From Deltaproteobacteria bacterium (GTDB taxonomy: Bacteria; Desulfobacterota; GWC2-55-46), in NCBI GenBank assembly GCA_016177845.1, contig JACOUO010000030.1:1-37648 (forward strand): DNA of 37,648 nt, in the 5' to 3' direction. The stretch's first letter is position 1; each line of letters begins with the position of its first letter. A program made the position numbers and the translations under genes. Below, piece by piece: positions 9,636-32,555 of this stretch. Below the pieces are notes generated by a model, which saw nothing but the letters and a program-made list of their open reading frames with translations, made no database searches and was not told where the DNA came from.

Positions 9636-9665
9636 AAAAAAGCGGGCTTTTGGCCCGCTTTTTTT
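9636..9665 (-). terminator. terminator at the downstream end of the phage-like cluster
   Basis: GCGGGC (9642-9647) pairs with GCCCGC (9653-9658), extended by an A-run on one side and a T-run on the other, so it can work in both directions. It begins at the stop codon of the holin-like gene and closes the late operon. Confidence 0.88.
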
Positions 9666-10089
9666 ATTTACCCCAAACTATTCCTGCCGCTTTCTCAATC
9701 GACCTGCCGCCAAAGTAGAATATGATTACCGTCTGCATGATTTCCTTGTGTATATCAGTTAAAGGAATCTGCGGATAACCGAGATACGGGGCAAATATTG
9801 TCCACGAAAAGATAGCCAGCATCAGAAAAGACCATATGGGCCTGTGCGTAACTGTCAACACCCTTGTCCAACCCAAAGCGCCTTCCGATTCCTTTGCCGC
9901 CAGTTCCCTTGCCCCCTGAAAGCTCGAGGCTACGGTCTTATATTCCTCAACGGCAAGCCTTTGACCTTCAAGCCTCATCTCTTCACGTTCTTTTTCACTT
10001 AATGAAGCCGGCAGATATCTATCCGAAAGCCTGTCGATCACCTTACCGACAGTACTCTGCAGTACATCCCCGATTATTGGTGTAGCCAT
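9664..10089 (-). CDS. 3-TM holin-like protein
   Basis: This protein of about 141 residues has an amphipathic N-terminal segment (1-25), a charged central region (32-75) and two or three membrane helices near the C-terminus (about 85-100, 105-112, 118-132). The layout, with THRPIWSF before the first helix, resembles the 3-TM holin family first named from gene transfer agents. That assignment is by pattern only. The start chosen is ATG 10089, six bases after AAGGAG. A longer upstream frame lacks such a site. It follows the M15 endolysin and ends at the cluster terminator, as expected for a lysis gene. Confidence 0.7.
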   Translation of the reverse strand: MATPIIGDVLQSTVGKVIDRLSDRYLPASLSEKEREEMRLEGQRLAVEEYKTVASSFQGARELAAKESEGALGWTRVLTVTHRPIWSFLMLAIFSWTIFAPYLGYPQIPLTDIHKEIMQTVIIFYFGGRSIEKAAGIVWGK

Positions 10090-10100
10090 CTTAAACTCCT

Positions 10101-10460
10101 TTACTCGCCGCACTCGAAATGATTTGAATCCCAGCCTACTTCTTTCGTGTAGTTCTCAGGACTTACCCCAAACCTTCCTCCCCATCTGCCCCCCAGCTGC
10201 TCCCACCTCTCTCCAAGCATTTTGTACTTCTCCTTATCGGTGAGATAGACTCCGTTCCTGAAGAGGTTGAAATCAACGGCAAGCCTGTCCCTGTGCTTTG
10301 AGTTCATTGTCTTGCTGCGGCCCGACTCCACATAGATCCTCTGCTGTTCCTCTGTCCTGTACGCCTCTCCAAATGTCAGTTCGTATCCATTGCCATAAGC
10401 GAACTGCACAAGCTCAGCTATCATCAGAGGAAATTTTCTCTGCTTCTCTCCTAAAGACAT
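10101..10460 (-). CDS. M15-family peptidoglycan peptidase (endolysin)
   Basis: This 119-residue enzyme has the M15 metallopeptidase pattern. EAYRT is followed by SKHRDRLAVDFN, with zinc ligands H56 and D63, and WDSNHFE supplies H114. Phage M15 enzymes cut the L-Ala-D-Glu or D-Ala links of peptidoglycan to release particles. Two in-frame ATGs exist. The one at 10460 has GGAG six bases upstream, while the one at 10472 overlaps the upstream stop and has no site, so 10460 is preferred. No signal peptide is seen, so it would need a holin. The flanking membrane proteins fit that role. Confidence 0.87.
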   Translation of the reverse strand: MSLGEKQRKFPLMIAELVQFAYGNGYELTFGEAYRTEEQQRIYVESGRSKTMNSKHRDRLAVDFNLFRNGVYLTDKEKYKMLGERWEQLGGRWGGRFGVSPENYTKEVGWDSNHFECGE

Positions 10461-10471
10461 CTCAGACTCCA

Positions 10472-10696
10472 TTATTTAAAAGTAAGGTGCCCTATCAAAT
10501 AGATATAGGCATCTTTTATAATCCAGAGCGCGAGCGCTCCGCATAACCACAGAAAGGCCTTTACGGCGTTCTTTTTTGTCCTGATCAGGTCTTTTACAGC
10601 CTCCTGCTCCTCTTGCGAGAGGCTGCATGCACCCTGTATCTTTACCAGCCGCTCTGCAATGAGTACGGCCACTGTCTCAAGTTCTTTTTCATTCAT
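10472..10696 (-). CDS. small one-TM protein of the lysis cassette (holin-like)
   Basis: This 74-residue protein has an acidic N-terminal helix and one hydrophobic helix (about 47-68: AFLWLCGALALWIIKDAYIY). The start is ATG after AGGATTACCC. It lies directly upstream of the M15 endolysin, with a one-base overlap to that frame's first ATG. The size, single helix and position suggest a second holin or an antiholin, but no family signature proves it. Confidence 0.6.
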   Translation of the reverse strand: MNEKELETVAVLIAERLVKIQGACSLSQEEQEAVKDLIRTKKNAVKAFLWLCGALALWIIKDAYIYLIGHLTFK

Positions 10697-10725
10697 TGGG
10701 TAATCCTAATTCAAGGTGCGCCGGC

Positions 10726-11076
10726 TCAGGCCTTGCGTTCAAGACCCCTTATTTTCATTCCGAAAGGCAGCGATAATCCCTGCGGAGGGATTATATCCAG
10801 TGTTAGATCTGCTTTAAAATTATTCATGATATACTCAGCCCTGTCGATATGCACCATAACAGGCTGTTGCGTTGCAGGGTCGATTGCAGCCTTATCTCCG
10901 CTGCCTGCTTCCACTTCCATTGCCGTAACTGTGTCGACATTTATTCTTGCCTGCTCGCATCCGAAAGGGATCTGCTCATAGCGGACAAGAGGCAAACTGC
11001 TCTGTATTGGCAGAGTATCCGCGCAGTAGCAGGCCATTATATTTCCATTTGAATCATGCAGCACTTCTATAAACAT
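10726..11076 (-). CDS. hypothetical phage protein
   Basis: This 116-residue protein starts at ATG after TTAGGAGGAATCGA, a strong ribosome binding site. The sequence opens with a beta-rich stretch (MFIEVLHDSNGNIMACYCAD) and has no membrane helix. I do not recognise the family. It lies between a fibre-like gene and the lysis cassette with short gaps, so it is a late gene, probably a minor tail or fibre-associated protein. Confidence 0.7.
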   Translation of the reverse strand: MFIEVLHDSNGNIMACYCADTLPIQSSLPLVRYEQIPFGCEQARINVDTVTAMEVEAGSGDKAAIDPATQQPVMVHIDRAEYIMNNFKADLTLDIIPPQGLSLPFGMKIRGLERKA

Positions 11077-11086
11077 TCGATTCCTC

Positions 11087-11566
11087 CTAATTTGTATGGT
11101 ACTGCCAGGTTACTGTCACACTGCCGTCAACAGTCGACCCGTTCAGATTGAAATACTGGCCTGAAGGCGAAATGCCCGACCAGCTTGCAGCAAAGCTTAT
11201 TGGATTACTAACATTAGTGCCTGTAATCTTTGGAAAGTGCGCGTAATCGTCTCCCATTGACACATAGAGATTTCCCGACCAAGGCCCGGTGATCACATAA
11301 CTGCCCTGAGCCAACTTAAGTTTAGCCAGCGTCACATTCGCATCCGCAAGTTTGGCTGTGATTACGACACCATCAGCCAAAACCACGCTTTTACTGTTTA
11401 TGCCGTCGTGGTCATGGTCCTGCGCCGGTGTGAAGCTATTTCCAACCCACTCCTTTAGGTGGACAAGATTCTGCCGTATGCCTTCCATGAGTGTGGAGTC
11501 TATCGGGCTTTCAGCGTCTGTCTGCGAAGCAAGAATGCTGTTCCATAAATATGTAGGGCCTGCCAT
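11087..11566 (-). CDS. putative tail fibre / minor structural protein
   Basis: This 159-residue protein starts after GGAGGTTTTTAA. An N-terminal helical part (1-45) is followed by FTPAQDHDHDGINSKSV, a His/Asp-rich linker often seen in phage fibre proteins. A Ser/Gly-rich beta C-terminus follows, with NGSTVDGSVTVTWQYHTN at the end. It follows the tail hub gene and would be a small fibre or tip protein. The function is inferred from position and composition only. Confidence 0.68.
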   Translation of the reverse strand: MAGPTYLWNSILASQTDAESPIDSTLMEGIRQNLVHLKEWVGNSFTPAQDHDHDGINSKSVVLADGVVITAKLADANVTLAKLKLAQGSYVITGPWSGNLYVSMGDDYAHFPKITGTNVSNPISFAASWSGISPSGQYFNLNGSTVDGSVTVTWQYHTN

Positions 11567-11589
11567 TTAAAAACCTCCGTCTTAAAAGA

Positions 11590-13320
11590 TTACCAGATTA
11601 AATAACCGTCTTCCGTGCCGTTGTTGACCTTTCCTGCCGCGCTGCTTACGAAAGCAAACTCTTTTTGAGTAACTGATGCAGCAGTATAATCAGGCGTGCC
11701 GGAAGGAGAGATAAAACCATATCTCCTGTACATCTTTGTTTCTATCGCTTCGATGCTGATCTTATTATTTGTGAAGTCAGGCCTGACGCTTGTGATCATC
11801 ACGCGTTCTTTCTGCCATGAGCCAACCCCTTTTTCAAAGGCTTCGGAGGTGGTGATATCCTTTAAATCCGTAGGCTTTATAAAACGCGAATCATAGGCAA
11901 CATTATTAATATCTATCTCAAGCGATACTGTTGCCGCGGGTTGGCAATACCTGTTCAGAAGCTTTGAAGCAAGCGCTATTGCCGATTCTTCGCCCTTAAT
12001 TAAAGTGAACACTATGCTATCCGACGCGTCAAATAAAGGCAGTTCCGCTGTTGTGGCTATTACCCTTATATATTTCGTCTTATCAGCATCGAAGAGTTGG
12101 TACTTGCCGTCCTTTGATAAGACCACAACTTCGCCAATGCTCCCGTTAGGCGCTGTCCACTGGAGAGTATTTGCGGCTTTGTTAAAGGTAATCGTGCCTG
12201 AACCCGTCCCATTTGTCCTTGATGCGTGATATATTTTGATGCCCGTCAGATTGACCGGCAGAGTATATGTGCGGGTCCTGATCCATTTGCTCTTTATTGT
12301 CTTTGTGCTTATCTCATTCCATTGAGACACATCCTGAGACGCCGTATCCGCGGCTATTACGGCAGCCTCAAAATTCGACTCTTTTTCATCGCCCGACTCA
12401 TCGTAATCAAAGTACACGATAATCCGATTATAAAAATTATCTTTGTACCCGCTTTTCATACTCAAAGAGCCGTCAAGAATATTGTGATTCTCCGTCCATT
12501 CCTCCACCGATTGCCCGGGGACAGGCGGGGCAAAGACTTTAAAGGTAATTTTCTCGCCGTCATGCACAATGAATGAATTGGTCTCTATCTGCAGCTCATT
12601 AAGGTACTCATTAGCTTCTTTCGGCTCTGTTATGATCCTGTCGAATAACCAGCCGCTCAGCCACAGGTCTCGCTCAGCCGTAAACGCTGACATATCAATA
12701 TACGCCGCATCTATTCCAAGCTGGTTTGAGAGCATATCCATTATGATGTCTACAGGGTTCATATTCCTGTAGTCGAGATACTGCGTCCCTGACGCATTCT
12801 CTACAGGGATTTTTGTTGACCCGTCCTTCAGGTCATCTGCTACCGTTATTGTAAGCTCATCACCTTTTCTGGACCAATCAAGTATCTTTCCGGTAAATGT
12901 CGGCGCGTAATCCAGATAAGTAAATCCAGGAGCTATAAAACCGTCTTTCCTGACTACCCTACGGTTTTTCAGGAACTCATCATTGATTAATTTTTTAAAG
13001 CTTTCCCTTCCTGTGACCACAAAGCTCTGCTGGCCTCTTGTGGAATATCCGCTTTTTGTATCAACCTTATTCTGGAGAGATGATACGGATTTTAGTACCG
13101 GCCGTATATTGAAGGCTTCCAGTTGGTCGCTCCCGACAGCGAATATTCCACCTGCAACGCAAGATCCATCAGCCCTGAAAGCAGTTCCCGGGAATCCGTT
13201 ATTCCTGTGATAACCGAAACAAATAACTCCGCTGTCGAGTTCAGCCTCAATTATTACATTGGGCGTATTTACGGCTTTCTTAATTTCATCGAGGTATTTT
13301 TGTGTAAGCGCAATGGCCAT
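11590..13320 (-). CDS. putative tail hub / receptor-binding tail protein
   Basis: This 576-residue protein starts ALTQKYLDEIKKAVNTPNVI and continues with beta-rich repeats typical of siphovirus distal tail or tail-associated proteins: RGQQSFVVTGRE, TYLDYAPTFTGKILDW, and a long loop with ITEPKEANEYLNELQIETNS. The central part resembles the hub proteins that close the tail tube and carry the fibres, although no catalytic motif is visible. It lies downstream of the tailspike gene and upstream of the fibre gene. The family assignment is by context and overall pattern, not by a signature. Confidence 0.65.
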   Translation of the reverse strand: MAIALTQKYLDEIKKAVNTPNVIIEAELDSGVICFGYHRNNGFPGTAFRADGSCVAGGIFAVGSDQLEAFNIRPVLKSVSSLQNKVDTKSGYSTRGQQSFVVTGRESFKKLINDEFLKNRRVVRKDGFIAPGFTYLDYAPTFTGKILDWSRKGDELTITVADDLKDGSTKIPVENASGTQYLDYRNMNPVDIIMDMLSNQLGIDAAYIDMSAFTAERDLWLSGWLFDRIITEPKEANEYLNELQIETNSFIVHDGEKITFKVFAPPVPGQSVEEWTENHNILDGSLSMKSGYKDNFYNRIIVYFDYDESGDEKESNFEAAVIAADTASQDVSQWNEISTKTIKSKWIRTRTYTLPVNLTGIKIYHASRTNGTGSGTITFNKAANTLQWTAPNGSIGEVVVLSKDGKYQLFDADKTKYIRVIATTAELPLFDASDSIVFTLIKGEESAIALASKLLNRYCQPAATVSLEIDINNVAYDSRFIKPTDLKDITTSEAFEKGVGSWQKERVMITSVRPDFTNNKISIEAIETKMYRRYGFISPSGTPDYTAASVTQKEFAFVSSAAGKVNNGTEDGYLIW

Positions 13321-13380
13321 TTCATAATCCGTCTAATTTAGAATTTGCTTCATTTGTATTTCAAAGTTGAACAAAGCTAT

Positions 13381-15312
13381 TTAAGCCTTGGCATAATAAG
13401 GGAGCACATATTCACTTCCAGCTATCCTCAAAGTTACATAGCCTGTCGGGTTGGCAGGCAAAGCGGCAGCGCTTCCGGCAAACCCTACCGTAGTCTGCGT
13501 AGAACCAAATCCTGCGCTTGTCCCATCGGTATCTGATATAGGCGCGGAATTCTTTTTCAGGAGCTTACCATCGGCATCAACCCAGGTATAAGTTCCGTCA
13601 TACCTGAAAACCCCTCCGTTCCATGTGCCGTCTACTTTTATGCTGTCGCCTGTCTCCGCCTGCAGCAGGTTGGCAGCTCCTCTATAAATACCCGCGTCTC
13701 CTGCGGCAGTGCCATCGCCTAATATTATTCCTCTCGGGGTTATTGCCAGTCTTGGGTAGGCTTCTCCTGTTACAAAATACTTCATGAGCTGGGTGGTTGA
13801 GGCAGCCCCTGTAAGTTCCAAACTCGCAAGTCGCGCTTTTTTAGAGCCTGCCCTTGCTATGCAGGAGTAAGCCGTGGAAGGGTATGCCCCGTTTTCATCC
13901 ACGATTAGACCATCAGGAGTGGTCACGGTTGTCTGTCCCGCGTCCATCTCCAGATAGACATCTCCTGAGGTTGAGTTCTGCTCAACAAGGGCATAATCGC
14001 CCGGCCTGTCAGGATTTACGGAAAGAGCCGCAGAGGTCATCAGGACTTTATCAATGAATGTCCTTAAGCCTTTATTCCGCAGGAGCCTTCTGAAGTGCCC
14101 GTTCTGAGGGTAGCGGATATTATGGAAGGCTATGCCATTACAGTTATTTGAAAGTATGTCTATGAGCGGGATCTGCCTTATGCCATTGGCGGTTACGGTT
14201 GCCGAGTCAATTGATTCGAACCAGCAGTCATTAAGCATATTGGCATAGGCGCGTTCAATGGTGAGCTCGCTTCCCTTGAAAGATTGCTGGAAGGCCGTGC
14301 CGTAGAACCTGTTTCCGTTGGATCTCTCTATATATCCGCCGTAGTCGTTTCTACTGAAGACACTCTTGACTAAAACCATGTCCGTACAGCTTAAGGAATC
14401 CCTGTTGTACGACATGGCAAGCCCCATCTCGTTGTACGCAACATCAGCATTTGATACAATTCCCTGCTGTGCCATGTGCAGGCTAAGCCCAACCGCAAGA
14501 TGAGAGATTGCCCCATTGGTCACTGTAGCCGTGGCAGGCCTTGACACTGTTATGTTTGTGCCTGATATGGCTGTAATGCAGTACCAACCATCAAGACCGG
14601 TTATCTTTATGAACTCATTAACAAACATTCCAACAGCGGATGAAACTGTAAGGGCCGTTGTGCCTGAAGTAATAGAGCCTGTGGCAGTGCCATTGGCAAA
14701 GGGCCGTCCCGTTACCCTGTAAATCCTTGGGTTGCGTATATCGATAAACTGAGTAGTCTCGGCGAGTATTCCTGCCGCGGCCTTATCCGCACCGTCAAAA
14801 GTAGGATTTTCAAGGATTATATTGCCCTGTCCGTACGAGGCCACTACGGGCTCGCTGTTGCCATTGGAAGGGGTTCTGAGCATAATCATTCCTGTAGTAC
14901 CTGCGACAAGCATTGCGCCCCTGTTGAACTCAAGATGAGTGCCGAGATATGTGATGAGCCCTGTATTTATCAGATATCTGCCTTTCGGAAAATATACGGT
15001 CGGCTGTCCGTTTACCCTGCCGAAGTATGCGCCTCCAAGGGCTGGGGAAATAGCTTCCTGATAGGTTCTTGCCAAATCTATTGCGGCCTGAATCGCCGTT
15101 GAGGAATCCGCAACTCCTGTCGGGTCTGCCCCAAAGTCAGCATGAGTTACATCTATTCTCGGTAATCTTGTTTTAATATTATCTGCGTTTATGATTGTAT
15201 GGGTTCCGTCATTATCATGTTCGACAAGTGAGAGCCTGTTGAGCGTATCGGGAAGCCCCGGGTGCCCAGCTCCTACCATTTTCTCAGTATATTGAATTCT
15301 CTGGTCAGTCAT
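13381..15312 (-). CDS. tailspike with pectate-lyase-type beta-helix
   Basis: This 643-residue protein has a short particle-binding N-terminus, then VTHADFGADPTGVADSSTA (55-73), the classical entry motif of the pectate lyase 3 / tailspike beta-helix superfamily. The region to about residue 430 repeats short beta turns such as GNIILENPTFDG and FIDIRNPRIYRV. A C-terminal part (540-643) with repeated GTWNGGVFRYDGTYTWV is trimer-like. Such spikes often bind or cleave surface polysaccharide, but active-site acids cannot be assigned from sequence. An insert near 213-273 resembles a module in the spike at 22693-24831. The start follows AAGGAGCATAA. Confidence 0.85.
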   Translation of the reverse strand: MTDQRIQYTEKMVGAGHPGLPDTLNRLSLVEHDNDGTHTIINADNIKTRLPRIDVTHADFGADPTGVADSSTAIQAAIDLARTYQEAISPALGGAYFGRVNGQPTVYFPKGRYLINTGLITYLGTHLEFNRGAMLVAGTTGMIMLRTPSNGNSEPVVASYGQGNIILENPTFDGADKAAAGILAETTQFIDIRNPRIYRVTGRPFANGTATGSITSGTTALTVSSAVGMFVNEFIKITGLDGWYCITAISGTNITVSRPATATVTNGAISHLAVGLSLHMAQQGIVSNADVAYNEMGLAMSYNRDSLSCTDMVLVKSVFSRNDYGGYIERSNGNRFYGTAFQQSFKGSELTIERAYANMLNDCWFESIDSATVTANGIRQIPLIDILSNNCNGIAFHNIRYPQNGHFRRLLRNKGLRTFIDKVLMTSAALSVNPDRPGDYALVEQNSTSGDVYLEMDAGQTTVTTPDGLIVDENGAYPSTAYSCIARAGSKKARLASLELTGAASTTQLMKYFVTGEAYPRLAITPRGIILGDGTAAGDAGIYRGAANLLQAETGDSIKVDGTWNGGVFRYDGTYTWVDADGKLLKKNSAPISDTDGTSAGFGSTQTTVGFAGSAAALPANPTGYVTLRIAGSEYVLPYYAKA

Positions 15313-15336: not shown

Positions 15337-16119
15337 TTATTCCTTGCGGCCTGTAAGCCGCAGAGTTATATCTCTATAGACTCCCCCGTTTTTGAAGGGG
15401 TTTGAGAATTTTGTATCAGGCCTCATCAGAAAGACATCTTCAGGATTATTTGCCGTATCCCAGGCAACAAAGAAATTTTTTAAACCGCTTGTATCCCACC
15501 AGTTTTTCACCTTTTGATAAAGCTCGGCATCAGCATCATTAAAGGCGATGCTCATGGACCTCTCTACATATTTATTATGGATACCTGCGATATAGCCGCT
15601 GTAGCTTAAGTTAACGCTCGCCTTGGCGTCCTGCTCATGCGGGTCAAAACCTACGGTTGCATAGTCAAGCTCTGTCTTATTTCCCCAGATGCATATGGCT
15701 ATGAAGACAGCCTCACTGATATTGGTAATCTTCAGCCGCCAATACCTGCTGGCAAGCGCGCCTGAAAATTCCTTCAAGATCACAGAGTCAGCTGTCGGAG
15801 AAAATGGAGTGAATGCGTCATTTATATCCGAAATGAAATTATCACTTGAATACTGAAGGGCAATAGCCGCTCCGCAGGATTTAAGATTATGTCCGATTAC
15901 CGCGAGGTAATCGGCAGATTTCAGATTACCCTCTCCCGCGTCATATGTTATGTACTGCGGGCTTACGGCATTTTCAGACCTCCAGCAATTTGTCTCAAGC
16001 ATATTAAACAGGTAATGCACATCATAATCGCCAAGCCCTGTCGTAGACGCTGTAAGAGAGGAGTTGCTGCTGCCAAGCATTGTCTCCCAAAAAAATTTTA
16101 TCTTAGCCCATGTAGCCAT
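15337..16119 (-). CDS. putative distal tail protein
   Basis: This 260-residue protein is rich in beta strands, with a discoidin-like middle section (about 60-135: SADYLAVIGHNLKSCGAAI, then SRYWRLKI) and a C-terminus ending YRDITLRLTGRKE. It starts at ATG after GCAGGAGTTATGA. It follows the tape measure gene, apart from the lipoprotein insertion, and precedes the tailspike, the usual place of the distal tail protein that ends the tube. The function is inferred from order. Confidence 0.65.
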   Translation of the reverse strand: MATWAKIKFFWETMLGSSNSSLTASTTGLGDYDVHYLFNMLETNCWRSENAVSPQYITYDAGEGNLKSADYLAVIGHNLKSCGAAIALQYSSDNFISDINDAFTPFSPTADSVILKEFSGALASRYWRLKITNISEAVFIAICIWGNKTELDYATVGFDPHEQDAKASVNLSYSGYIAGIHNKYVERSMSIAFNDADAELYQKVKNWWDTSGLKNFFVAWDTANNPEDVFLMRPDTKFSNPFKNGGVYRDITLRLTGRKE

Positions 16120-16300: not shown

Positions 16301-16966
16301 CTAAGGCCTAACCACTTCCTTGACCTCTTTTTTCCATTTGACCAGGATGCCGTCCTCAAAATAACAGACAATATCTCTGAAACTTAACTTCTCAGCAACG
16401 CCTTTACCGGTCACGACATCAACTACTTTAGGCACACTGCTCTGCCAGCCAAGTGCAAGTCTTACCTGCTCCATATTCATGCCTATCTTTAACTCGTGGG
16501 CGAACGCCGACTTTTTCATTTCATCTGTCCACGGAGCGGCGTCAATTGCCTCTCTCCTCTTCTCTTCAAGCTCTTTGAATTTTTTGAACCCATCCGAGTC
16601 CGCCAGATATTCAGAAAGCCCGGGGAAGAAATATCTCGCATTTACAAACCCTTCTTCACCTGATTTGAATTTAACCTTATAGAATGCTACAGCCGCGTTC
16701 TGCGGAAAACTGCGCGCCCCTGCAAGGCTGGTCCAGCAGGATGCTTTGCTTATACCCTCAGCGCAGGCAACATCTTCGATTATGAATTCCTGCAAATCCC
16801 TGCTCAAAAACCCTTGGCTTTGCAGAGAAGGGCTATTATGCACAATGACCTTTTCAGCGGTGATTACGCCAAAGCTCTTTCCGACCCTGATATCTTTAGC
16901 AGGCCCTGTAGCACAAGATGCGCTTAAAAACAATATCGCTACCGAAAACAATGCAAGTCTCTTCAT
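16301..16966 (-). CDS. lipoprotein with SH3b-like and BamE/SmpA-like segments (moron candidate)
   Basis: This 221-residue protein has a signal peptide MKRLALFSVAILFLSASC with a lipobox-like cysteine at 18. Residues 30-115 resemble a bacterial SH3 domain: VIVHNSPSLQSQGFL, then AFYKVKFKSGEEGFVNARYF. Residues 165-215 resemble BamE/SmpA proteins: GMNMEQVRLALGW and CYFEDGILVKWK. It is an envelope-type protein between the tape measure and distal tail genes. Gaps of 119 and 181 bases surround it, unlike the tight packing of its neighbours. GGAGGAAGCACA precedes the ATG, and a weak TTGTGA-17-TACTTT lies at 17028-17000. This pattern fits a moron gene altering the host surface, for example by excluding other phages, but the role is not shown. 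Confidence 0.8.
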   Translation of the reverse strand: MKRLALFSVAILFLSASCATGPAKDIRVGKSFGVITAEKVIVHNSPSLQSQGFLSRDLQEFIIEDVACAEGISKASCWTSLAGARSFPQNAAVAFYKVKFKSGEEGFVNARYFFPGLSEYLADSDGFKKFKELEEKRREAIDAAPWTDEMKKSAFAHELKIGMNMEQVRLALGWQSSVPKVVDVVTGKGVAEKLSFRDIVCYFEDGILVKWKKEVKEVVRP

Positions 16967-22682: not shown

Positions 22683-22692
22683 GCGTACTCTC

Positions 22693-24831: not shown

Positions 24832-25049
24832 AATACCCCTCCGTCTATATCGTTTGTGGCAACATATGTATCCTGAAAAGAGCCGCCGTCTATATCCGTA
24901 GGCAGAAGTATCCTTACTATTCCGCCGCCCATATCCGTTACCGCGCCGTTATTGAAAATAAGCTTGACCACGCTCCCAATCGTCGGAGAGCCGTCATGCT
25001 CCTCTATACTGATTGAACTGCCGCCTGCCGATATCGCCTTACAAAGCAT
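24828..25049 (-). CDS. hypothetical head-module protein (73 residues)
   Basis: This 73-residue beta-rich protein has GGGIVRILLPTDIDGGSFQD and ends ATNDIDGGVF, a short DIDGG repeat. It overlaps the upstream virion morphogenesis gene by 11 bases and the spike gene by 4 bases. Its coupling to the spike suggests a small decoration or spike-attachment protein. I do not recognise the family. Confidence 0.6.
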   Translation of the reverse strand: MLCKAISAGGSSISIEEHDGSPTIGSVVKLIFNNGAVTDMGGGIVRILLPTDIDGGSFQDTYVATNDIDGGVF

Positions 25050-25512
25050 CTTTTAAAACCTCATCAACATGTCTCGTAAAAGAGTCCAGAACCTCTGCCG
25101 CATCCGCTTCACTGAGCTCGAAGAATTCCCTTTTTATCTTTCTTTTGCCTGTGCCTGTTTCCTGCAGGTTGAGAGCCTTTTTTTCGCTTTCCTGATTTTC
25201 AAAATAAATAACTGCTTCGCCTGCTCTGCCATTTGCTTTGATACTGATATCTCTGAGCATCTCTCCGCTCATCCTGAGGTCGACAAGTTCGGCTGATCTG
25301 CCTTTGCTTCTTCTGGCCTTCTTATATTCTTTCGAATAAGGCTCAAAAGCAGCTCCATCCTTGTCCCTGGCTTCGGAGGTCCTCTTAAGCAGATTGCCTT
25401 TCACCGCCTCGGCGCACTCGATGAGCATATCCTCAGAGACAAGCGTCTTTCTGACACTTTCAACCGCGTCATCAAATTCCTTTAAGCCGATTACTTCTAT
25501 ATCCATGCTCAT
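25039..25512 (-). CDS. virion morphogenesis protein (Phage_tail_S-like)
   Basis: This 157-residue protein has the arrangement of the phage virion morphogenesis family. A helical N-terminus is followed by EARDKDGAAFEPYSKEYKK and then ELVDLRMSGEMLRDISI, with a beta end (AVIYFENQESEKKALNLQE). These proteins help join heads to tails. The ATG follows GAAGGTAAAAG and sits 3 bases after the stop of the upstream 50-residue gene. The order within the head-completion genes fits. Confidence 0.7.
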   Translation of the reverse strand: MSMDIEVIGLKEFDDAVESVRKTLVSEDMLIECAEAVKGNLLKRTSEARDKDGAAFEPYSKEYKKARRSKGRSAELVDLRMSGEMLRDISIKANGRAGEAVIYFENQESEKKALNLQETGTGKRKIKREFFELSEADAAEVLDSFTRHVDEVLKDAL

Positions 25513-25668: not shown

Positions 25669-25819
25669 GCCCGTCTACCCTTTTCTCACGCTTTTTTGCC
25701 TTCAGAGGCCTCCAGCCTTTTTCTAAATACTTTTTAATTTCAACTTCGCCTCTCGCGCAGACCGTGATTTTCGTCTTCCCGTCTTCCATCACTTTCCCTG
25801 TATAGAACCAATTCTCCAT
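25661..25819 (-). CDS. small phage protein (52 residues)
   Basis: The frame starts at ATG 25819, overlapping the upstream stop by one base (TGATG), and ends TGA at 25663-25661. The product (MENWFYTGKVMEDGKTKITV, then EIKKYLEKGWRPLKAKKREK) begins with beta strands and ends basic. Gapless coupling on both sides supports it as real. The family is unrecognised. Confidence 0.62.
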   Translation of the reverse strand: MENWFYTGKVMEDGKTKITVCARGEVEIKKYLEKGWRPLKAKKREKRVDGHE

Positions 25820-26295
25820 CAGCGCCCCCGCTTTGCTGTCCGGTAAGATTCAAGCGTATCCCCTTTTATCTCCCCTTCACGCCGCAGTTCGATTTTCTCA
25901 GTGCCTTTTTTCCCAAGATACGCCCTGACCTCAGGCCCAAAAAATTCTTCAGGTATAGGCTCTGTCTTGTTTAAAAATGGAGTATCAGGGAATTTTACTC
26001 TTTCCTTTTTTAAGCCCGGATGCTCCCTCAGGGCCTGCTCCAGACGCCTTAATAAACTCTCATCCGGGCCTTTCAAAGGCACCCAATTGTCTCTCCAATA
26101 CCTTAGTGCCGCATCCTTGATGCTTATCACCCTGATTGTTTGAATATGTTTTATCCCGCCTTCGTACTCGGTATATTTGCCGTTCCACATCCAGAGATCA
26201 TTGATGTAATCTCCCTGCCAGGCAATCCCCGCGTACGAGTTGCAGGCAAGTGGGATATATCCTTTTTTCAGATATGAATTTATTGTAATTGTCAT
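25819..26295 (-). CDS. hypothetical phage protein (158 residues)
   Basis: This 158-residue protein has an aromatic N-terminal third (IAWQGDYINDLWMWNGKYTE) and a charged helical remainder (PLKGPDESLLRRLEQALREH). It lies just after the capsid gene but has no clear ribosome binding site. A GC hairpin (26309-26330) sits between the two. It may be a head-associated protein. I do not recognise it. Confidence 0.65.
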   Translation of the reverse strand: MTITINSYLKKGYIPLACNSYAGIAWQGDYINDLWMWNGKYTEYEGGIKHIQTIRVISIKDAALRYWRDNWVPLKGPDESLLRRLEQALREHPGLKKERVKFPDTPFLNKTEPIPEEFFGPEVRAYLGKKGTEKIELRREGEIKGDTLESYRTAKRGR

Positions 26296-26340: not shown

Positions 26341-27204
26341 TTATTCGTGCTTGGTGATTATCTTTACTCCGCCGTTTGCGGCTGTATTTACGCAGCCCTG
26401 GCCGTATACCGCTGTTACCACTATCTCTGTTGCCCTCAGTGACGCGTCTCTCTGAAACTCTGTCTTTGCGCCTGTCTTTAATACATAAGCAAGGCCTGAC
26501 TGATTTCCGAGAGGCATCATTACGCCCTGCCTGTCTGCGTTCACATTTACGGATGGGCAGTTTGTTGACTGCACTATGTCGACTCCGTAGAGACTGCCGA
26601 GGGAACCGACTTCGGCTGCAGGCGCGCTGGGCCCGCCCCATACTGCGCCTGTTGAAGCGGCAATGGCTGTCCTTAAATTGCTTACCTGATAAGGATGAAG
26701 CACTGCCACAAAAGGCCCTTTTGAATTTCCAAGCTCAAGCGCATAGATTGCCGAGAGGAAATTAGCCTCTGTCATGTTCACGCCTGATGTGCCTACTGAA
26801 TTTGTAAAGTCAGCGGCTGAGGCAAGGACATCCGAATCGATCTTATTTGCAAGGGCCTTGCCCAGTTCTGTTGCGAACGGCTCAAGGCCGCCAAGGCCGG
26901 CGCCGTTTAAGAGCATGTCTGTGACGGTAATCATTATGCCGGCCTCATCCGCCGTAACGAGGGTGGAAGTTGTGTTTACGGCGGTGTTGCTCATATCTAT
27001 TGCTTCTGTGAGATCAGAAGCGGAAAGAAGGGGCCACTTCGGAAACTCAACGCTCAATGTCGAGTCCCCGCTGATGTCTGCTACCCTTACGAGGGGCGGC
27101 ATTACCGCTTCCGCGTATGCCGCATCGATTACAAGCCTTGATACTATTTCTGCCGCTACAAGCTCGCCTGCCGCGGCTGCTGCGGTACTTACTTCGTTTG
27201 CCAT
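26341..27204 (-). CDS. major capsid protein
   Basis: This 287-residue protein has the layout of a HK97-fold capsid. An Ala-rich N-terminal helix (TAAAAAGELVAAEIVS) is followed by strands, an E-loop-like region (TADEAGIMITVTDMLL), GPFVAVLHPYQVSNLR as spine helix context, and a C-terminal ATEIVVTAVYGQGC. The start used is ATG 27204 after AAGGAGATTGATTG. A TTG one codon earlier is less likely. It follows a scaffold gene and precedes head-completion genes. No protease domain is visible in the portal or capsid region, so the scaffold may act without one. Confidence 0.82.
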   Translation of the reverse strand: MANEVSTAAAAAGELVAAEIVSRLVIDAAYAEAVMPPLVRVADISGDSTLSVEFPKWPLLSASDLTEAIDMSNTAVNTTSTLVTADEAGIMITVTDMLLNGAGLGGLEPFATELGKALANKIDSDVLASAADFTNSVGTSGVNMTEANFLSAIYALELGNSKGPFVAVLHPYQVSNLRTAIAASTGAVWGGPSAPAAEVGSLGSLYGVDIVQSTNCPSVNVNADRQGVMMPLGNQSGLAYVLKTGAKTEFQRDASLRATEIVVTAVYGQGCVNTAANGGVKIITKHE

Positions 27205-27248
27205 CAATCAATCTCCTTTTCTTAAACTGCTAATGCTGATTTTATTCT

Positions 27249-27920
27249 TTAAACGCCTGTGTGAAACTTCCTCTTGCGTGCTTCTATGAACGGGTTCTTC
27301 ACATCCCTGAATTTATAGTGCTGTCCCGCCGAGCCCTGAACATTCAAGCCTTCCCTGAGTATCCTGTCGAGCTCTTCCCTGGGCATTGTACGCCATACAT
27401 CGGGGTCTGAAAGGTTGTACCTGTGAGCCCCCTGACTGAACCTTGCGCCGTTTGAGCCTGAGCCTGCCGCTCCGTTTGACCTTAAGTGATGAGGCCTTTC
27501 ACTGAGCCAGTGGCTTACATATTCCTCTATTGACATCGGCATGCCTGAATTATTTATCCTTAAAGCTCCGGAGTCCCCGATAACGCTGTAGCCTCCGTCA
27601 TCGCTCATCTTTATTTTTTCCTTGAGGAGGTCTGCAACTTCTTCAGCATCGACCACATTATGCCTTGAGATTGCTTTAAGGAGGGCTGAGGTCTTTTTGT
27701 CCTGTCTGAGGCTCTCTATCTCTACCTTGAGCCTCTCAAACTCTTCTGATGACGACCTGCCCCTCTGCGCCTTGGCGTATGCCTTTTTATATGCCTCATC
27801 GATAAGCTCCTGCACCTTTGCCTGCTGCTCAGGCAGGAATGTTACTTTCGATGATTCCGTACCGAAACCATTATTAAGGCCGTCGCCTTCTGCCGTTTTG
27901 CGTTCGTCAACATGATTCAT
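27249..27920 (-). CDS. capsid scaffold protein
   Basis: This 223-residue protein is highly charged and helical. A coiled-coil region at about 28-85 (EQQAKVQELIDEAYKKAYAK, then EFERLKVEIESLRQDKK) precedes a Gly/Ser-rich C-terminal half with a basic end (FIEARKRKFHTGV). This pattern, and its place just before the capsid gene, are those of phage scaffolds. The ATG is 6 bases after AGGAGG, among the strongest sites in the cluster. It lacks a recognisable protease motif. Confidence 0.72.
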   Translation of the reverse strand: MNHVDERKTAEGDGLNNGFGTESSKVTFLPEQQAKVQELIDEAYKKAYAKAQRGRSSSEEFERLKVEIESLRQDKKTSALLKAISRHNVVDAEEVADLLKEKIKMSDDGGYSVIGDSGALRINNSGMPMSIEEYVSHWLSERPHHLRSNGAAGSGSNGARFSQGAHRYNLSDPDVWRTMPREELDRILREGLNVQGSAGQHYKFRDVKNPFIEARKRKFHTGV

Positions 27921-27993: not shown

Positions 27994-28263
27994 CTACACG
28001 ATCGTCTTTCTTTCACCTGATAAAAACCCGATAACATTCTTTTTATTCATAAGGGCCTTTACAACAGACTGGCAGACATATGCTCTCTCGCTTAAAGACA
28101 ATCTCTGCCACCCCTCTGTGCCTGTTATTTTAAGGATGCACTTTCTTGCCTCTTCCCAGATAGCCTGCGTCAATTGCAGCGCTGTGGGGAAATCGACATT
28201 GAACTCCGCGCTCAATACCTTTGCCGTATCCCGCGCCTTTGAATTTATATGCATTCCCTGCAT
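27994..28263 (-). CDS. hypothetical phage protein (89 residues)
   Basis: This 89-residue helical protein (MQGMHINSKARDTAKVLSAE, then FPTALQLTQAIWEEARKC) starts after TAGGAGACAACTGA. It sits between portal and scaffold with 11- and 73-base gaps. I do not recognise it. Small head-assembly factors occur here in other phages. Confidence 0.62.
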   Translation of the reverse strand: MQGMHINSKARDTAKVLSAEFNVDFPTALQLTQAIWEEARKCILKITGTEGWQRLSLSERAYVCQSVVKALMNKKNVIGFLSGERKTIV

Positions 28264-28274
28264 TCAGTTGTCTC

Positions 28275-29648
28275 CTATATGCGCATTCCCGAGTTACTGC
28301 CTGCCTCTATCTCTTTGTTGATCCTTGTCTTTAATTCATCATCGAGTTTCGGCAGCACCGAGGCCGCTATCTTTTTCTGCAGCTCTTTTCTGAATGTGGG
28401 CGAGCCTACCTCGGCTGATTGTGCCTGAATGGCATTTTGCAGGTCCCTGTCCAGGTCCCTTACCGAAAAATCATCAGGGTAATCTATCACTCCGTCAAAG
28501 ACCTTTCCCTCCCACTTTGCCCACAGGCTCAGTATCCTGTGCTCCGCGTGCTCGATATTATCCGCCTTTTCACTCAGGGTTGAGTAGAGCTGCTGGTATT
28601 CAAGCTCAAGCGCCACGCCTGACCTTTGCCCTACGAACTCCTCTGCCGCTTTTACGCCTCCGAGCTTTGCAATCCTGTATATCTCTGATACATCCTGTTT
28701 TACCCACTCCCTTATCTCAGTCAGCGATGAATGAGGCGGCTCAAGCCAGTACGGGCGTGAGTTCGGCTCGGACGGGTCAAACTGCAGGATATTGCGCGGC
28801 CCTATCTCTTTTACATCCTTGCCCTCTGCCCTTGCGTACGGGACAGCAAGCATCGGGAATGCGGTATTCTCAATTATTTCCTTTGCGTCGCTGCATAGGT
28901 AATAGATATTTTTATTTATGTCAGCGATATCCTGCAGGTCTGATATCCCTATCATCCTCATGCCTGATTGCTTGTTGTAAAGATTTACCAAAGGCACTTC
29001 TCCAAGCCCGTGCCAGCCCGAGTCAATAAGGCTGACCTCACTGCTTCCCTTGTCCGCTCTCCAGAGTTCCCAGCCGTCCCTGGTCCATATGCGATATAAG
29101 TCCCGTCCTTCTTTTATCTTGACCATATCCAGCATGAACCTGCCTGTGGATGGAACTCTTGCGTATGACCAATCAAGGAGATTTTCAGGCGTAACAAGGG
29201 CGATGTAAGGCCTCAGCCCGTAGCTTTGCGCCTCAGCCCTTGTTGACGCGATAAGCTGCGGTTTATCTACTATGACGGACACCCTTCCATAGACTGATGC
29301 AAACCTCTGCGCCTCTCTAAAAAAATGCCTCAATGAATTCCCTTCGAGATCGGCATCTTTGCAAAATGCGTTGAAGAGAGGGTCTGTGGCAAGAGAGCCG
29401 AAATCCTTTTTTGCCTCTTTCCTGAAAAGGTGCGATACGAAAATATCCACTACAGGGCCGCAGTAATTGCAGTAATAGCTTATTTCCTTGCGGCGGTTGT
29501 AATTAGCGCTGCTCTCAAACGGGTGCTGCAGGAGGTAATTACCCTGTTTGTATATCTGCCCCCCGAAGTATGACCGTATGTAGAACCGCCATTCGTCCGC
29601 GAATGCGTCATAGTCAGGGTGCGTCCTCTCAAGCTCTTCTCTCGTCAT
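28275..29648 (-). CDS. portal protein
   Basis: This 457-residue protein forms the DNA gateway of the head. It begins TREELERTHPDYDAFADEWR and has the pattern of portals: a clip and stem region (about 95-240), NIYYLCSDAKEIIENTAFPM as wing context, and a helical crown near the C-terminus (SEKADNIEHAEHRILSLWAK). The start is ATG after GGAGACAGACCTG, 22 bases past the terminase stop. Terminase-portal-scaffold-capsid is the standard order. Confidence 0.8.
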   Translation of the reverse strand: MTREELERTHPDYDAFADEWRFYIRSYFGGQIYKQGNYLLQHPFESSANYNRRKEISYYCNYCGPVVDIFVSHLFRKEAKKDFGSLATDPLFNAFCKDADLEGNSLRHFFREAQRFASVYGRVSVIVDKPQLIASTRAEAQSYGLRPYIALVTPENLLDWSYARVPSTGRFMLDMVKIKEGRDLYRIWTRDGWELWRADKGSSEVSLIDSGWHGLGEVPLVNLYNKQSGMRMIGISDLQDIADINKNIYYLCSDAKEIIENTAFPMLAVPYARAEGKDVKEIGPRNILQFDPSEPNSRPYWLEPPHSSLTEIREWVKQDVSEIYRIAKLGGVKAAEEFVGQRSGVALELEYQQLYSTLSEKADNIEHAEHRILSLWAKWEGKVFDGVIDYPDDFSVRDLDRDLQNAIQAQSAEVGSPTFRKELQKKIAASVLPKLDDELKTRINKEIEAGSNSGMRI

Positions 29649-29669
29649 CAGGTCTGTCTCCGTTATCCT

Positions 29670-30941
29670 CTATTTATAAAATCTTTTGTGCGGGTCCGGT
29701 TTCGCTATCCTTAACGGGAATTCGTATTCCAGAAAATACCCTACGGCATCCGCCGCGTGTGTCCGTTCAGGTTTTGACTTATCTATTTCTATCCCGTTCT
29801 CTTTCCATTCAACTGTTTCAAAATCTTTTCTGAGCGCTTTGCATCTCGGATGATGGATCAGCTTTACTTCCGCGCTCGCGCTCTCAAGCATTGCATTGAC
29901 CGTATTTACCCTGTCTTTCACGGGAGGATTTGCTTTTTTAATCCTCTGGTCTTTAAGGCCAAGCTCATGGAGCAGCGCATAGTCGCTCTTGCCTGTTGTT
30001 GACCTGCTCATGCCTGCGGCATCGCCGTAAACGATTATCCCTGCCTTATGTGAGCCGTATCTTCTGACAGCCTCCCTGCCCATCTCTATGGTATTGGTAT
30101 TTCTCAGATGTATCTCATCAACTATCACGACCCTGCCCCCATGAACCTGGCAGACCTCCCAAACGCATGTATCCACATTGAAGTCACAGCAGATATTCAC
30201 AGGCAAATTCTGCTTCAGGGTTATTCCTGCGTCTTCGTGTATCTCTGACCTGTATGCGTAGTAGACCCTTCCATTCCTGCCTTCAAAGCTCCCTTCGTAT
30301 TCCTGCCTGAATGTCCTTGGGTCAAGGAGCCTCCTTGCCGCGCTTACCTCTGCCTCAGGCAGGATATCGCTTGAGCGCCAGGAGTAAACTCCCCAGTCCT
30401 GATCAACTCCTGATTTTGCATAGTCCACAAGGTCTTTATAATGATTAAGCCCTTCAGGAACCCCTATGAACCAGCACCACCCTTCTCTGTCCGAAAGCGC
30501 GGGCCTGATATTCTCAGTCCATGCCGCGGCCTTCATGTTTGCGTATTCATCAAGTACCCCGCCATCCCACGGAGTGCCTTCAAGCCTCTGGGGTTTATCA
30601 AGCCCGGCGACCCATATCTCGCTGCCGAACCTTGTCAATACGCACAGGTCGGTTTCATAGATTTTTTTCACCCATGCCTGCGGAACAAGCGCTTTCAAGT
30701 CTTTCCAGAATATTCGTTTCGCCTGGTCCCTTGTGGGGGCAGCGGCAAAATACCTCGGGTCTTTCCATCTCTTTTTGACAGGCAGCACTGAGACAAGCTT
30801 TCTTTTTGCCATCTCAGTCTTGCCGCTTCTTCTGCCTGACGGAACTACGGCAAACCTTTTATTCTCCGTCCAAAGCCTCTTCTGTTCCGAATGGTATTGT
30901 AATTCGTGCCATCTCTCTGGCAATATCCTGCGCTTCATCAT
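29670..30941 (-). CDS. terminase large subunit
   Basis: This 423-residue packaging motor has Walker A SGRRSGKT at 35-42, Walker B GGVLDEY at 127-133 (D131, E132) and nuclease acids D253 (CCDFNVD), D307 (YGDAAG) and D398 (HAADAVGY). All three nuclease positions are present, so it can probably cut as well as pump DNA. The N-terminal ATG overlaps the small-subunit gene by 83 bases. No strong ribosome binding site is seen there, so translational coupling is likely. The family length is slightly short but complete. Confidence 0.9.
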   Translation of the reverse strand: MMKRRILPERWHELQYHSEQKRLWTENKRFAVVPSGRRSGKTEMAKRKLVSVLPVKKRWKDPRYFAAAPTRDQAKRIFWKDLKALVPQAWVKKIYETDLCVLTRFGSEIWVAGLDKPQRLEGTPWDGGVLDEYANMKAAAWTENIRPALSDREGWCWFIGVPEGLNHYKDLVDYAKSGVDQDWGVYSWRSSDILPEAEVSAARRLLDPRTFRQEYEGSFEGRNGRVYYAYRSEIHEDAGITLKQNLPVNICCDFNVDTCVWEVCQVHGGRVVIVDEIHLRNTNTIEMGREAVRRYGSHKAGIIVYGDAAGMSRSTTGKSDYALLHELGLKDQRIKKANPPVKDRVNTVNAMLESASAEVKLIHHPRCKALRKDFETVEWKENGIEIDKSKPERTHAADAVGYFLEYEFPLRIAKPDPHKRFYK

Positions 30942-31329
30942 TTTTTTCGCAATTCTCTTCCAGCCCCCACGCCAGCCGCTCGCCTTTGATTACATTTGAG
31001 AGGACTTCTCCGGCCATTTTCGCCACCTTCAATTCCTCAAGCCCAAGCTTCACATCTTCATTCTGAAGCCCTTTTACGAGCCTTTTCTTAACGCCTTTCC
31101 AAAGGGCCTTGTGGTCATCAAGCACATGGCCTGGCTTTGCATCGCATATTATTTCCGTTGCATCGGAGATTTCGACTTCAACTTCTTTAGCCGCGCATTT
31201 CACCCAGCCATTTATCTTTGACTTTCTCCTGATGCTGCTTTCATCGCACTGATGTTTTCTTGCAAGAGCCCTTATGGAGAGATTTTCGTTTTCAAAAGCT
31301 TTTCTTAATTCCTTCCAATCTATTGCCAC
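30859..31329 (-). CDS. terminase small subunit (HTH)
   Basis: This 156-residue protein has an N-terminal helix-turn-helix (ALARKHQCDESSIRRKSKIN, about 20-39) and an acidic helical remainder, the usual layout of small terminases that pick the DNA end for packaging. The start is GTG 31329, with GAGGG five bases upstream. It overlaps the large-subunit gene by 83 bases. Confidence 0.8.
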   Translation of the reverse strand: MAIDWKELRKAFENENLSIRALARKHQCDESSIRRKSKINGWVKCAAKEVEVEISDATEIICDAKPGHVLDDHKALWKGVKKRLVKGLQNEDVKLGLEELKVAKMAGEVLSNVIKGERLAWGLEENCEKNDEAQDIAREMARITIPFGTEEALDGE

Positions 31330-31366
31330 ATTTACCCTCGAGCTTTATTTCATTCAATCTTCGGGA

Positions 31367-31552
31367 TTAGAATTTATCCAACCCCTCATGGTCCTTGCAT
31401 GACCTTAGAGGGTACAGGCTCAGATAAACCTTATTGCATTCCATGCACCTTTCAGGTTCTCTCAACAGAACTGTGTTCACGGTCTTCCTGCGGTATCCTG
31501 CCAAGTTACCGCTCTTTTTAAAACGGCTTGCAAAGAATTCCAATTCCATCAT
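31367..31552 (-). CDS. small zinc-knuckle protein
   Basis: This 61-residue protein has C36-x2-C39 and C52-x2-H55 (CMECNKVYLSLYPLRSCKDH), a plausible zinc-binding knuckle in an otherwise basic sequence. The ATG is 6 bases after GGAGGT, a near-perfect ribosome binding site, which supports it as a gene. It lies between the terminator at 31692-31718 and the terminase genes. It could be an HNH-like remnant or a DNA-binding regulator, but the motif is too short to decide. Confidence 0.68.
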   Translation of the reverse strand: MMELEFFASRFKKSGNLAGYRRKTVNTVLLREPERCMECNKVYLSLYPLRSCKDHEGLDKF

Positions 31553-31859
31553 GTCTTACCTCCGCGTGCTGTCTATACCCTATGGTGTTTTATTTCTACC
31601 CTTAAGTTTTCATGTCCCTGAATTCATGGAATAAATCCGTCGTAATTATTCTACCCTTCGATGCATTGCCCGCATTTGGCTCTCCTGAAATAAAAAAAAC
31701 CGGCCATTTCTGGCCGGCATTTTTATCATTCAATTTACCCCGCATAATTGACGGGATTTGCAGGTAGTATTTACTTTCATATAGCTCGGCTTTTATCAGG
31801 CCATTAAAGGCCGGATTTTCGCCAAGCACCCGATTTAGATTTTCTTATTTAAATTCAGT
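31553..31859. other. control region between early and late phage genes
   Basis: About 300 bases with no supported gene. It contains the terminator at 31692-31718 and two exact copies of TTCTACCCTT (31649-31658 and 31594-31603), with a related TCTATACCCTAT at 31572-31583, all upstream of the zinc-knuckle and terminase genes. No consensus sigma-70 promoter is seen here. Confidence 0.55.
31692..31718 (-). terminator. terminator after the early phage genes
   Basis: CCGGCCA (31700-31706) pairs with TGGCCGG (31711-31717) across TTTC, and on the minus strand the hairpin runs into eight T's. It separates the regulator genes from the late genes. Confidence 0.9.
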
Positions 31860-32132
31860 TTAAAAACTCTCATCCTCAGTAAGCCAGTTAGACCCATTCT
31901 CAAATGCAGCTTCCATCTGCCTGTTTATCATATTTTCCACTCCGCCCCTGAAACCGTACATTTTAAAGTCATCGAGCATATCGCCCATGGCCTGATATTG
32001 TCTTACAGTCTTGTACTCCACCCAGCTGAGTTTAGCCTCAGAAATCGGGTGAATTATTACATCAAAAGTCCTCCGTCTTTTCCTGTGCCCTTGCAGACGC
32101 GATCTTTTCTTCAGCCCTGTAGAGAATTTCAT
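31860..32132 (-). CDS. small basic phage protein, overlapping the sigma-like gene
   Basis: The frame is open from 32168, but ATG 32132 has GGAGGGCGT just before it and is the likely start, giving 90 residues. The first third is very basic (LKKRSRLQGHRKRRRTFD) and overlaps the 3' end of the sigma-like gene by 71 bases in another frame. The remainder is helical and acidic (KTVRQYQAMGDMLDDFKMYG). The family is unrecognised. The basic part may simply reflect the other frame, so the true start could be later. Confidence 0.5.
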   Translation of the reverse strand: MKFSTGLKKRSRLQGHRKRRRTFDVIIHPISEAKLSWVEYKTVRQYQAMGDMLDDFKMYGFRGGVENMINRQMEAAFENGSNWLTEDESF

Positions 32133-32331
32133 ACGCCCTCCCGAGTGATATTCGATGATTCTCCGCAATCAACTTCATATGAGTGTCCCAGTAATGATAT
32201 TCCGTAAAGATGGCCCTTTCCCTTGGACTTAAGCCTGCAAGAGGCCAGAGAATATCCCTGATCTCAAGGCCTGAGTGCTTAAGCCCTCCGTAAAATGAAT
32301 CAGGGTTTACTTTGGTTTTCTTTTCAGACAA
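32062..32331 (-). CDS. sigma-70 region 4-like regulator
   Basis: This 89-residue protein contains LSPRERAIFTEYHYWDTHMK and continues LIAENHRISLGRAYEILYRA (about 34-72), the helix-turn-helix pattern of sigma factor region 4. It lacks regions 2 and 3, so it cannot be a full sigma factor. Proteins of this type in phages switch on late genes. The only available start is TTG 32331 after an in-frame stop, with a weak ribosome binding site. It is the first gene after the consensus promoter at 32522-32550. Confidence 0.65.
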   Translation of the reverse strand: MSEKKTKVNPDSFYGGLKHSGLEIRDILWPLAGLSPRERAIFTEYHYWDTHMKLIAENHRISLGRAYEILYRAEEKIASARAQEKTEDF

Positions 32332-32521
32332 TAGCGGCTACCAAGTTAAAATGTTCTTCATACGCACATAGCTGGATTAGTGCAGTTACTAAATAAAGAG
32401 GAGTAAAGCGGAACCCTGCAGGAAGTGATTTCCCCTTATAGAAACAGCTTTCACACCAGTTCACATCGCTTCAATTCAATATGAACAGAGAAACAATCGG
32501 ATTGTGTTTTGAGTGACATTA

Positions 32522-32550
32522 ATTATACTTTATATTTATGTGCTTGTCAA
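32522..32550 (-). promoter_or_regulatory. consensus promoter of the phage-like cluster
   Basis: The minus strand has TTGACA (32550-32545), a 17-base spacer and TATAAT (32527-32522), an exact sigma-70 consensus with ideal spacing. Transcription would start near 32515 and run into the sigma-like gene. A promoter this strong needs tight control, which the overlapping palindrome could give. Confidence 0.9.
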
Positions 32551-32555
32551 GCACA
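32539..32555. promoter_or_regulatory. palindromic operator over the -35 box
   Basis: TGTGCTTGACAAGCACA (minus strand) is a perfect 17-bp palindrome with 8-bp arms around one central base. It covers the entire -35 box of the promoter at 32522-32550. Binding of a dimeric repressor here would block RNA polymerase. No matching repressor gene is in the cluster. Confidence 0.75.

Follow-up and report, generated by a model that had tools for sequence, protein, structure and literature searches.

To our knowledge, few gene transfer agents (GTAs) have been described outside the alphaproteobacteria. One review points out that homology cannot be used to find GTAs, since different phages have repeatedly given rise to them (PMC11841831). 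The RcGTA-like elements (Rhodogtaviriformidae) of alphaproteobacteria are co-directional head-tail-lysis clusters of caudoviricete origin without replication or integration genes, inherited vertically at order level and carrying a sigma-like helix-turn-helix (HTH) in the regulator. CcGTA of Caulobacter (GafY/GafZ) combines a sigma-70 promoter and palindrome, an early terminator, a sigma-factor-like HTH regulator and dispersed coregulated loci; there GafZ acts at the palindrome in the promoter and overrides the terminator after the first gene (PMC11150451). Dd1 is a GTA of Desulfovibrio whose small terminase subunit (TerS) is reported to have no DNA-binding domain, as is said of known GTA small terminases in general (PMC11841831). 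PBSX of Bacillus subtilis is a chromosomal phage-like particle cluster that packages evenly dispersed 13.4-kb pieces of host DNA (PMC12946183). Here we describe a 22.7-kb cluster of phage-derived genes in a Deltaproteobacteria bacterium (assembly GCA_016177845.1, contig JACOUO010000030.1). The window, meaning the whole stretch of 37,648 nucleotides analysed, is part of a 116-kb contig, and the open PMC papers covered by our literature search held no GTA report for this group.

Compared by description, the cluster shares with RcGTA-like elements every trait listed above, but it belongs to another host lineage, its TerS keeps an HTH, and its regulator is encoded in the cluster leader itself. The control anatomy is like that of CcGTA, except that GafZ is encoded elsewhere, whereas here a bipartite element with 55-bp spacing follows the terminator. 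Dd1 is deltaproteobacterial like the cluster but of another lineage, and PBSX differs in its Gram-positive host. We estimate a probability of about two in three that the cluster is a domesticated tailed-phage operon, captured once and inherited vertically, that packages DNA, most likely of the host, and works as a GTA.

All genes (9664–32331) lie on the minus strand in open frames between the housekeeping genes ychF (32705–33796) and lpxC (8221–9171), with a G+C content of 0.473, equal to that of the flanks (0.465 and 0.491). Profile searches identified capsid, scaffold, portal, large terminase subunit (TerL), TerS, neck, tail tube, tape measure, tail spike, an Mtd_N-domain adhesin, holin and M15 endolysin, and showed the first gene to be sigma-70 region-4-like (Table 1). 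None of the features of an active prophage was seen: the searches of the cluster proteins gave no match to integrase, recombinase, repressor or replication families, and no att-like repeat was found, the longest direct repeat between the two flanks being 8 bp (shuffles: mean 8.8). The first-pass annotation, made from the sequence of this stretch, had described a complete one-strand particle cluster with intact frames and housekeeping flanks, and both the reading frames and the profiles bear this out. It was also right about the missing integrase, recombinase, repressor, replication gene and att repeat, but a regulatory gene, the sigma-70 region-4-like one, is present.

The cluster is inherited vertically with its host across the whole order and is under purifying selection. 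In a class-level sample of 63 genomes, most of the relatives being draft metagenome genomes, TerL was found in 39 of the 48 genomes belonging to the order of the host, and all 15 from other orders lacked it; portal occurred in 34 of the 48, with all seven families represented. Nearly every genome has a single copy (genomes, loci and families are cited by our own G, L and f labels); a second, divergent copy on a short contig of G019 looks like a related phage. When the portal profile was run against a phylum sample of 395 genomes, it matched 10 order members and only five distant proteins elsewhere. For 24 genomes, a tree of rpoB, which lies on another contig in the window's genome, was compared with one of nine concatenated cluster proteins. 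The two trees have 14 of 21 splits in common, against a mean of 0.2 and a maximum of 3 when labels are permuted. Every one of the nine cluster splits with strong support recurs in the rpoB tree, no conflict is strongly supported, and the correlation between the distance matrices is Mantel r 0.83. Across the order, capsid identity (75–89%) is near that of YchF (67–88%) and RpoB (76–91%). The ratio of nonsynonymous to synonymous rates (dN/dS; pairwise Nei-Gojobori on close pairs, like the shuffles a simple control) is 0.04–0.06 for capsid against 0.04–0.07 for rpoB. Portal gives mostly 0.04–0.10, with 0.14–0.23 in two very close pairs, TerL about 0.07–0.16, and TerS, the loosest, about 0.17–0.35. 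Across 42 homologues, TerL shows little or no variation at its ATPase and nuclease residues.

Chromosomal position is fixed in families f1 and f4 and partly conserved further out. In f1 and in G043 (f4) the cluster has the same ychF-side neighbours, with lpxC, phoH, lnt and prfB opposite where contigs reach, and in the near-complete relatives G029 and G024 the cluster sits between housekeeping genes. In f3 members G034, G036 and G037, lpxC still adjoins the lysis genes; on the regulator side, other genes stand in the readable members of f2, f3 and f5, no ychF is found there in f6 (G046), and in G018 there is a break between lpxC and the cluster. Absences were assessed with G004, G022 and G045 left out. 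One genome nested in a genus of carriers, G025, has a clean empty site with 543 bp between lpxC and ychF. At the same junction G042 retains the regulator, TerS, 133 residues of TerL, a lysis-region gene and holin, and beside lpxC G032 retains holin, the bipartite element and the regulator. No cluster lies next to lpxC in G039 or over 7.5 kb upstream of it in G021; in G040 the cluster is present in pieces, and the carrier G044 has a frameshifted portal. The nesting of G025 among carriers, together with the decayed remnants in G042 and G032 at the same place, marks this as a case of loss and not of patchy gain.

These results answer most of what the first-pass annotation had put forward. The lpxC–ychF junction recurs in relatives, host and cluster trees agree, capsid, portal and TerL are strongly constrained, and the order-restricted distribution supports its suggestion of an origin separate from the alphaproteobacterial type. 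Empty sites in near relatives, which it had named as evidence to the contrary, do exist in the single case of G025, but that case is one of loss.

The stretch 31330–32705 holds promoter P1, operator-like repeats O1 and O2, terminator t1, the bipartite element and a small zinc-finger-like open reading frame (ORF), and these control sequences are conserved. Upstream regions and gaps of 35 genomes were compared with shuffled sequence. A P1-class promoter is present in 29 of the 35 (shuffles: mean 1.5, maximum 5), and O2, allowing up to two mismatches, is found no more than 130 bp from the regulator in 21 (mean 1.3, maximum 4). The regulator is among the most conserved cluster proteins (mean column identity 73%, 30 invariant columns), with a Sigma70_r4 match in 27 of 28 homologues. 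An intrinsic terminator, with stem sequences that differ, follows the regulator and its partner gene in 29 of 35 genomes (shuffles: mean 0.07); for other cluster genes the figure is 0 to 4 of 19 to 31. Downstream of t1 come, in order, the bipartite element, the 61-aa zinc-finger-like ORF and TerS; a sigma-70-like promoter is seldom present in the interval from terminator to TerS (1/29). The element consists of two GGGGTAGAA copies, 54–56 bp apart in most genomes that have both, with AACACCATAGGGTA after the second, and it is a candidate late promoter or activator site. We disfavour the alternative of a TerS-binding pac site: the TerS HTH varies while the element is constant, and the element also precedes unrelated host genes. 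No consistent LexA or sigma-54 site was found, Rfam gave no credible family match for the leader, and sequence and fold searches of the PDB returned no significant match for regulator or TerS. As a genome-wide regulon motif, TGTGC-N7-GCACA has few sites outside the cluster, near background.

The bipartite element also stands at other host loci. A scan of 47 order genomes for its strict pattern gave 33 matches in 23 of them and none for the reversed pattern; another pattern brought up additional sites. The window's genome has a single strict match, the cluster copy. Sites outside the cluster precede genes for lipoproteins or signal-peptide proteins, often in tandem, and then leaderless peptidoglycan hydrolases: M23 enzymes in G013, G018, G020, G034 and G046, and a lysozyme-like one in G020 (loci L305, L306, L307, L313, L314 and L318). 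One operon of this kind, flanked by hppA and ychF, adjoins the cluster in G020. C-terminal segments (TLRREGN.VWRI...FISE and HIDF..GTW..DVYLGGKKLG.VDKHN) recur in hydrolases whose catalytic domains differ. The pairing of hydrolases with secreted or lipoprotein partners suggests toxin and immunity pairs. In G038 (G038:C62, L309), MqsR/MqsA toxin–antitoxin genes lie directly downstream of the element; a similar MqsR-like ORF was observed directly behind it in G037:C46 (L317). A possible but doubtful extension is that the sigma-like regulator of an independent GTA-like particle also governs, via the element, these dispersed hydrolase-toxin and immunity-like pairs with their C-terminal tags, so that particles and arsenal would be fired together and the tagged enzymes might be cargo of the particles or be released together with them.

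The closest phage cousin found, the 30-kb viral contig L219 (IMGVR_UViG_3300041402_000316), is 57% identical to the cluster in TerL, 51% in portal and 64% in capsid. Directly upstream of its head genes L219 carries its own TerS, a Holliday-junction resolvase, a replication-initiation protein and an Erf-like annealing protein; the cluster is the same morphogenesis block without the replication module. L219 and Pelagibacter phage HTVC026P have homologous TerL, portal, scaffold and capsid in the cluster's order, but they carry extra modules (in L219 the replication genes), and the bipartite element, which the cluster has, was not found in the phage cousins examined. HTVC026P and its kin and phage DSL-LC06 are more distant than L219, the closest named-phage homologues being those of Pelagibacter HTVC phages (portal 38%). 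The tape measure has 649 aa in HTVC026P and 791 aa in DSL-LC06 but about 280–363 aa in most of the order, which suggests a short tail. The portal tree places the order in a single, weakly supported clade (37) separate from the phages. Slower evolution of TerL and capsid than of their phage homologues is a reported correlate of GTAs; in the trees of these two proteins, order-clade branches are short and phage branches longer, but with few phages and weak deep nodes. IMG/VR contigs L004–L008 and L206, catalogued as uncultivated viruses, group within the clade of the order and probably represent fragments of the chromosomal cluster, which suggests that viral databases list parts of it as viruses.

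The anatomy of the cluster lends itself to a working scheme. An ancestor of the order would have captured a tailed-phage morphogenesis and lysis operon once, with vertical descent since. A repressor at the operators would hold P1; upon release, the regulator and its partner gene would be made and transcription would stop at t1. The regulator would then act at the bipartite element downstream of t1, or let polymerase pass t1, and so switch on the 21-kb late operon. Short-tailed siphovirus-like particles would be built, filled with DNA and freed by holin and endolysin lysis. Read-through of t1 has a precedent in Caulobacter GafZ, while the location of the element after t1 and its repetition at other loci favour activation at the element. 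The packaged DNA would most likely be mainly that of the host, given that the cluster retains no replication module with which phage genomes could be made.

GTAs have been defined by six features (Kogay et al. 2022, PMC9662315). Three are seen here: particle proteins derived from caudoviricetes (Pfam and PHROG matches, phage homologues), full endogenization in the host genome (the 116-kb contig; G029 and G024), and mostly vertical inheritance with co-diversification (tree congruence and distribution). Packaging of random host DNA, an undersized head and delivery to cells are matters for experiment. ComEC, found in 41 of 47 order genomes, adds weak support because it is widespread. Several observations weigh against the GTA reading. 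The predicted N-terminal HTH of TerS (predicted local distance difference test score 85–92 over residues 1–40; HTH Pfam matches in several members) departs from the TerS without a DNA-binding domain that is a correlate of GTAs, though outside their definition; for this reason we call the cluster GTA-like, not a proven GTA. In the TerL and capsid trees the order clade takes in a few phages, with weak support in the case of TerL. The capsid is about 64% identical in phage cousins whose contigs reach 30 kb or more, so the head might be large enough for the whole cluster. The coregulated toxin–immunity-like loci also fit an antibacterial role. Of the first-pass proposal, a gene transfer agent or domesticated prophage, the domesticated particle cluster thus stands, and gene transfer is only its most likely function.

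The main rival, unlikely but of some weight, is a killing particle of the PBSX type: like PBSX itself it would package host DNA at random, but kill other strains by adsorption or injection damage and transfer no genes. It would account for the hypervariable spikes at two sites that differ between species, namely the tail spike and the interval from capsid to tail genes (occupied here by the Mtd_N protein, absent in many), and for the arrays of lipoprotein-like genes between tape measure and distal tail protein. It gains further weight from the coregulated peptidoglycan hydrolases with secreted, immunity-like partners elsewhere. For killing alone it would be costly to maintain a complete head, portal and packaging motor, all of them under strong purifying selection, yet sequence alone is unable to separate such a killer from a GTA. 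We give little credence to a vertically persisting but still mobile prophage or satellite, replicated or excised by a helper encoded elsewhere: the retained TerS HTH, the capsid kinship to phages whose contigs measure 30 kb or more and the clean empty site in G025 speak for it, but it sits poorly with the lack of an att repeat, the fixed junction, the tree congruence, the single copy, remnants formed by internal deletion (G042, G032) and a control element common to host loci. A host function besides transfer or killing, for example lysing cells in a controlled way or delivering protein cargo, seems a slim prospect too, since terminase and portal would be dispensable for it and are nevertheless conserved; consistent with it, G032 keeps regulator and holin after losing structural genes, and the control element also precedes leaderless hydrolases with common C-terminal tags. 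The recently acquired, decaying prophage, which the first-pass annotation had named as the main alternative and which the absence of lysogeny genes might suggest, is rejected as very improbable by the order-wide presence, host-congruent tree, low dN/dS and intact frames.

Read as a domesticated GTA-like operon, the cluster represents a separate GTA-like origin in an uncultured deltaproteobacterial order, recognisable through order-wide co-diversification. Its small terminase with an HTH is a natural test case for the loss of packaging specificity in GTAs, and the cluster exposes its own control sequences along with a host-wide set of sites.

Table 1. Features of the particle cluster in the window
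Feature	Position	Strand	Evidence
Promoter P1, TTGACA-17-TATAAT, 12/12 consensus	32522..32550	-	sequence
Operator-like inverted repeat O1, TGTGC-N7-GCACA, overlaps -35	32539..32555	.	exact match in window
Operator-like inverted repeat O2, 1 mismatch, close before the first gene	32352..32368	.	
Sigma-70 region-4-like regulator, 89 aa, first gene	32062..32331	-	Sigma70_r4
Second gene, conserved, no assigned function, true start probably inside	31860..32168	-	40-62% identity across order
Intrinsic terminator t1	31692..31718	-	
Bipartite element (novel): GGGTAGAA at 31649-31656 and 31594-31601, 55 bp apart; AACACCATAGGGTA after second copy	31574..31657	-	
Small Zn-finger-like ORF, 61 aa, CxxC...CxxH	31367..31552	-	DNA and reading frame conserved upstream of TerS
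Small terminase subunit, N-terminal HTH	30859..31329	-	phrog_1206; AlphaFold2 helices 5-14, 19-26, 30-40
Large terminase subunit	29670..30941	-	Terminase_6N/6C
Portal	28275..29648	-	SPP1_portal; phrog_145 E 1e-77
Small conserved protein	27994..28263	-	27-47% in part of relatives
Head scaffold	27249..27920	-	phrog_206
Major capsid protein	26341..27207	-	Phage_capsid_4, phrog_544; 75-89% identity across order
Conserved protein of no assigned function, after capsid	25819..26295	-	47-64%
Tail completion or neck protein	25039..25512	-	phrog_26
Small protein of variable module	24828..25049	-	54% homologue in G006
Variable adhesin module: 712-aa Mtd_N-domain protein (22693-24831) and three small proteins	21385..24831	-	Mtd_N; module different or absent in most relatives
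Conserved head-tail protein, 294 aa	20504..21388	-	51-65%
Conserved tail protein, 143 aa	20076..20507	-	32-55%
Tail tube	18957..20048	-	Phage_tube_2
Probable tail assembly chaperone	18520..18894	-	position; 61-81% identity
Short tape measure protein, 346 aa	17086..18126	-	phrog_3336 and others
Lipoprotein-like gene	16301..16966	-	four tandem copies in G006
Distal-tail-like protein	15337..16119	-	phrog_11633; position
Variable tail spike, pectate-lyase-like fold	13381..15312	-	Pect-lyase_RHGA_epim
Tail hub or fibre protein	11590..13320	-	phrog_11439; 49-62%
Three small tail or lysis-associated proteins	10472..11566	-	46-65% in relatives
Endolysin, M15 peptidase	10101..10472	-	Peptidase_M15_4
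Holin	9664..10113	-	phrog_3427
Closing terminator t2	9635..9658	-	sequence

Two other identities were considered for parts or all of the cluster. A diversity-generating retroelement behind the Mtd_N protein was rejected, as only the N-terminal domain matches and no reverse transcriptase is found among the cluster genes; a tailocin is ruled out by the intact, constrained portal, capsid, scaffold and terminase. In G006 (L102, 3312–6510) the lipoprotein gene g16301 is present as four diverged copies in tandem between the tape measure gene and the distal tail genes, an arrangement reminiscent of an immunity-gene array. Between lpxC and holin, at about 9265–9530, lies a small membrane protein gene that we take to be DUF2905-like, served by a strong promoter (TTGACA-18-TATAAT, 9527–9498); the empty site of G025 has a stretch similar to this interval. 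In the distant family f34 of the same phylum, the portals at L228 and L229 (G120 and G083) are about 31–32% identical to the cluster portal and could belong to prophages or to another domesticated cluster. The phage cousins L118 (G019:C16), L012 and L014 have TerL proteins of 725–790 aa in which only the C-terminal part matches the cluster TerL and the N-terminal part resembles a different terminase, suggesting a chimeric packaging enzyme.

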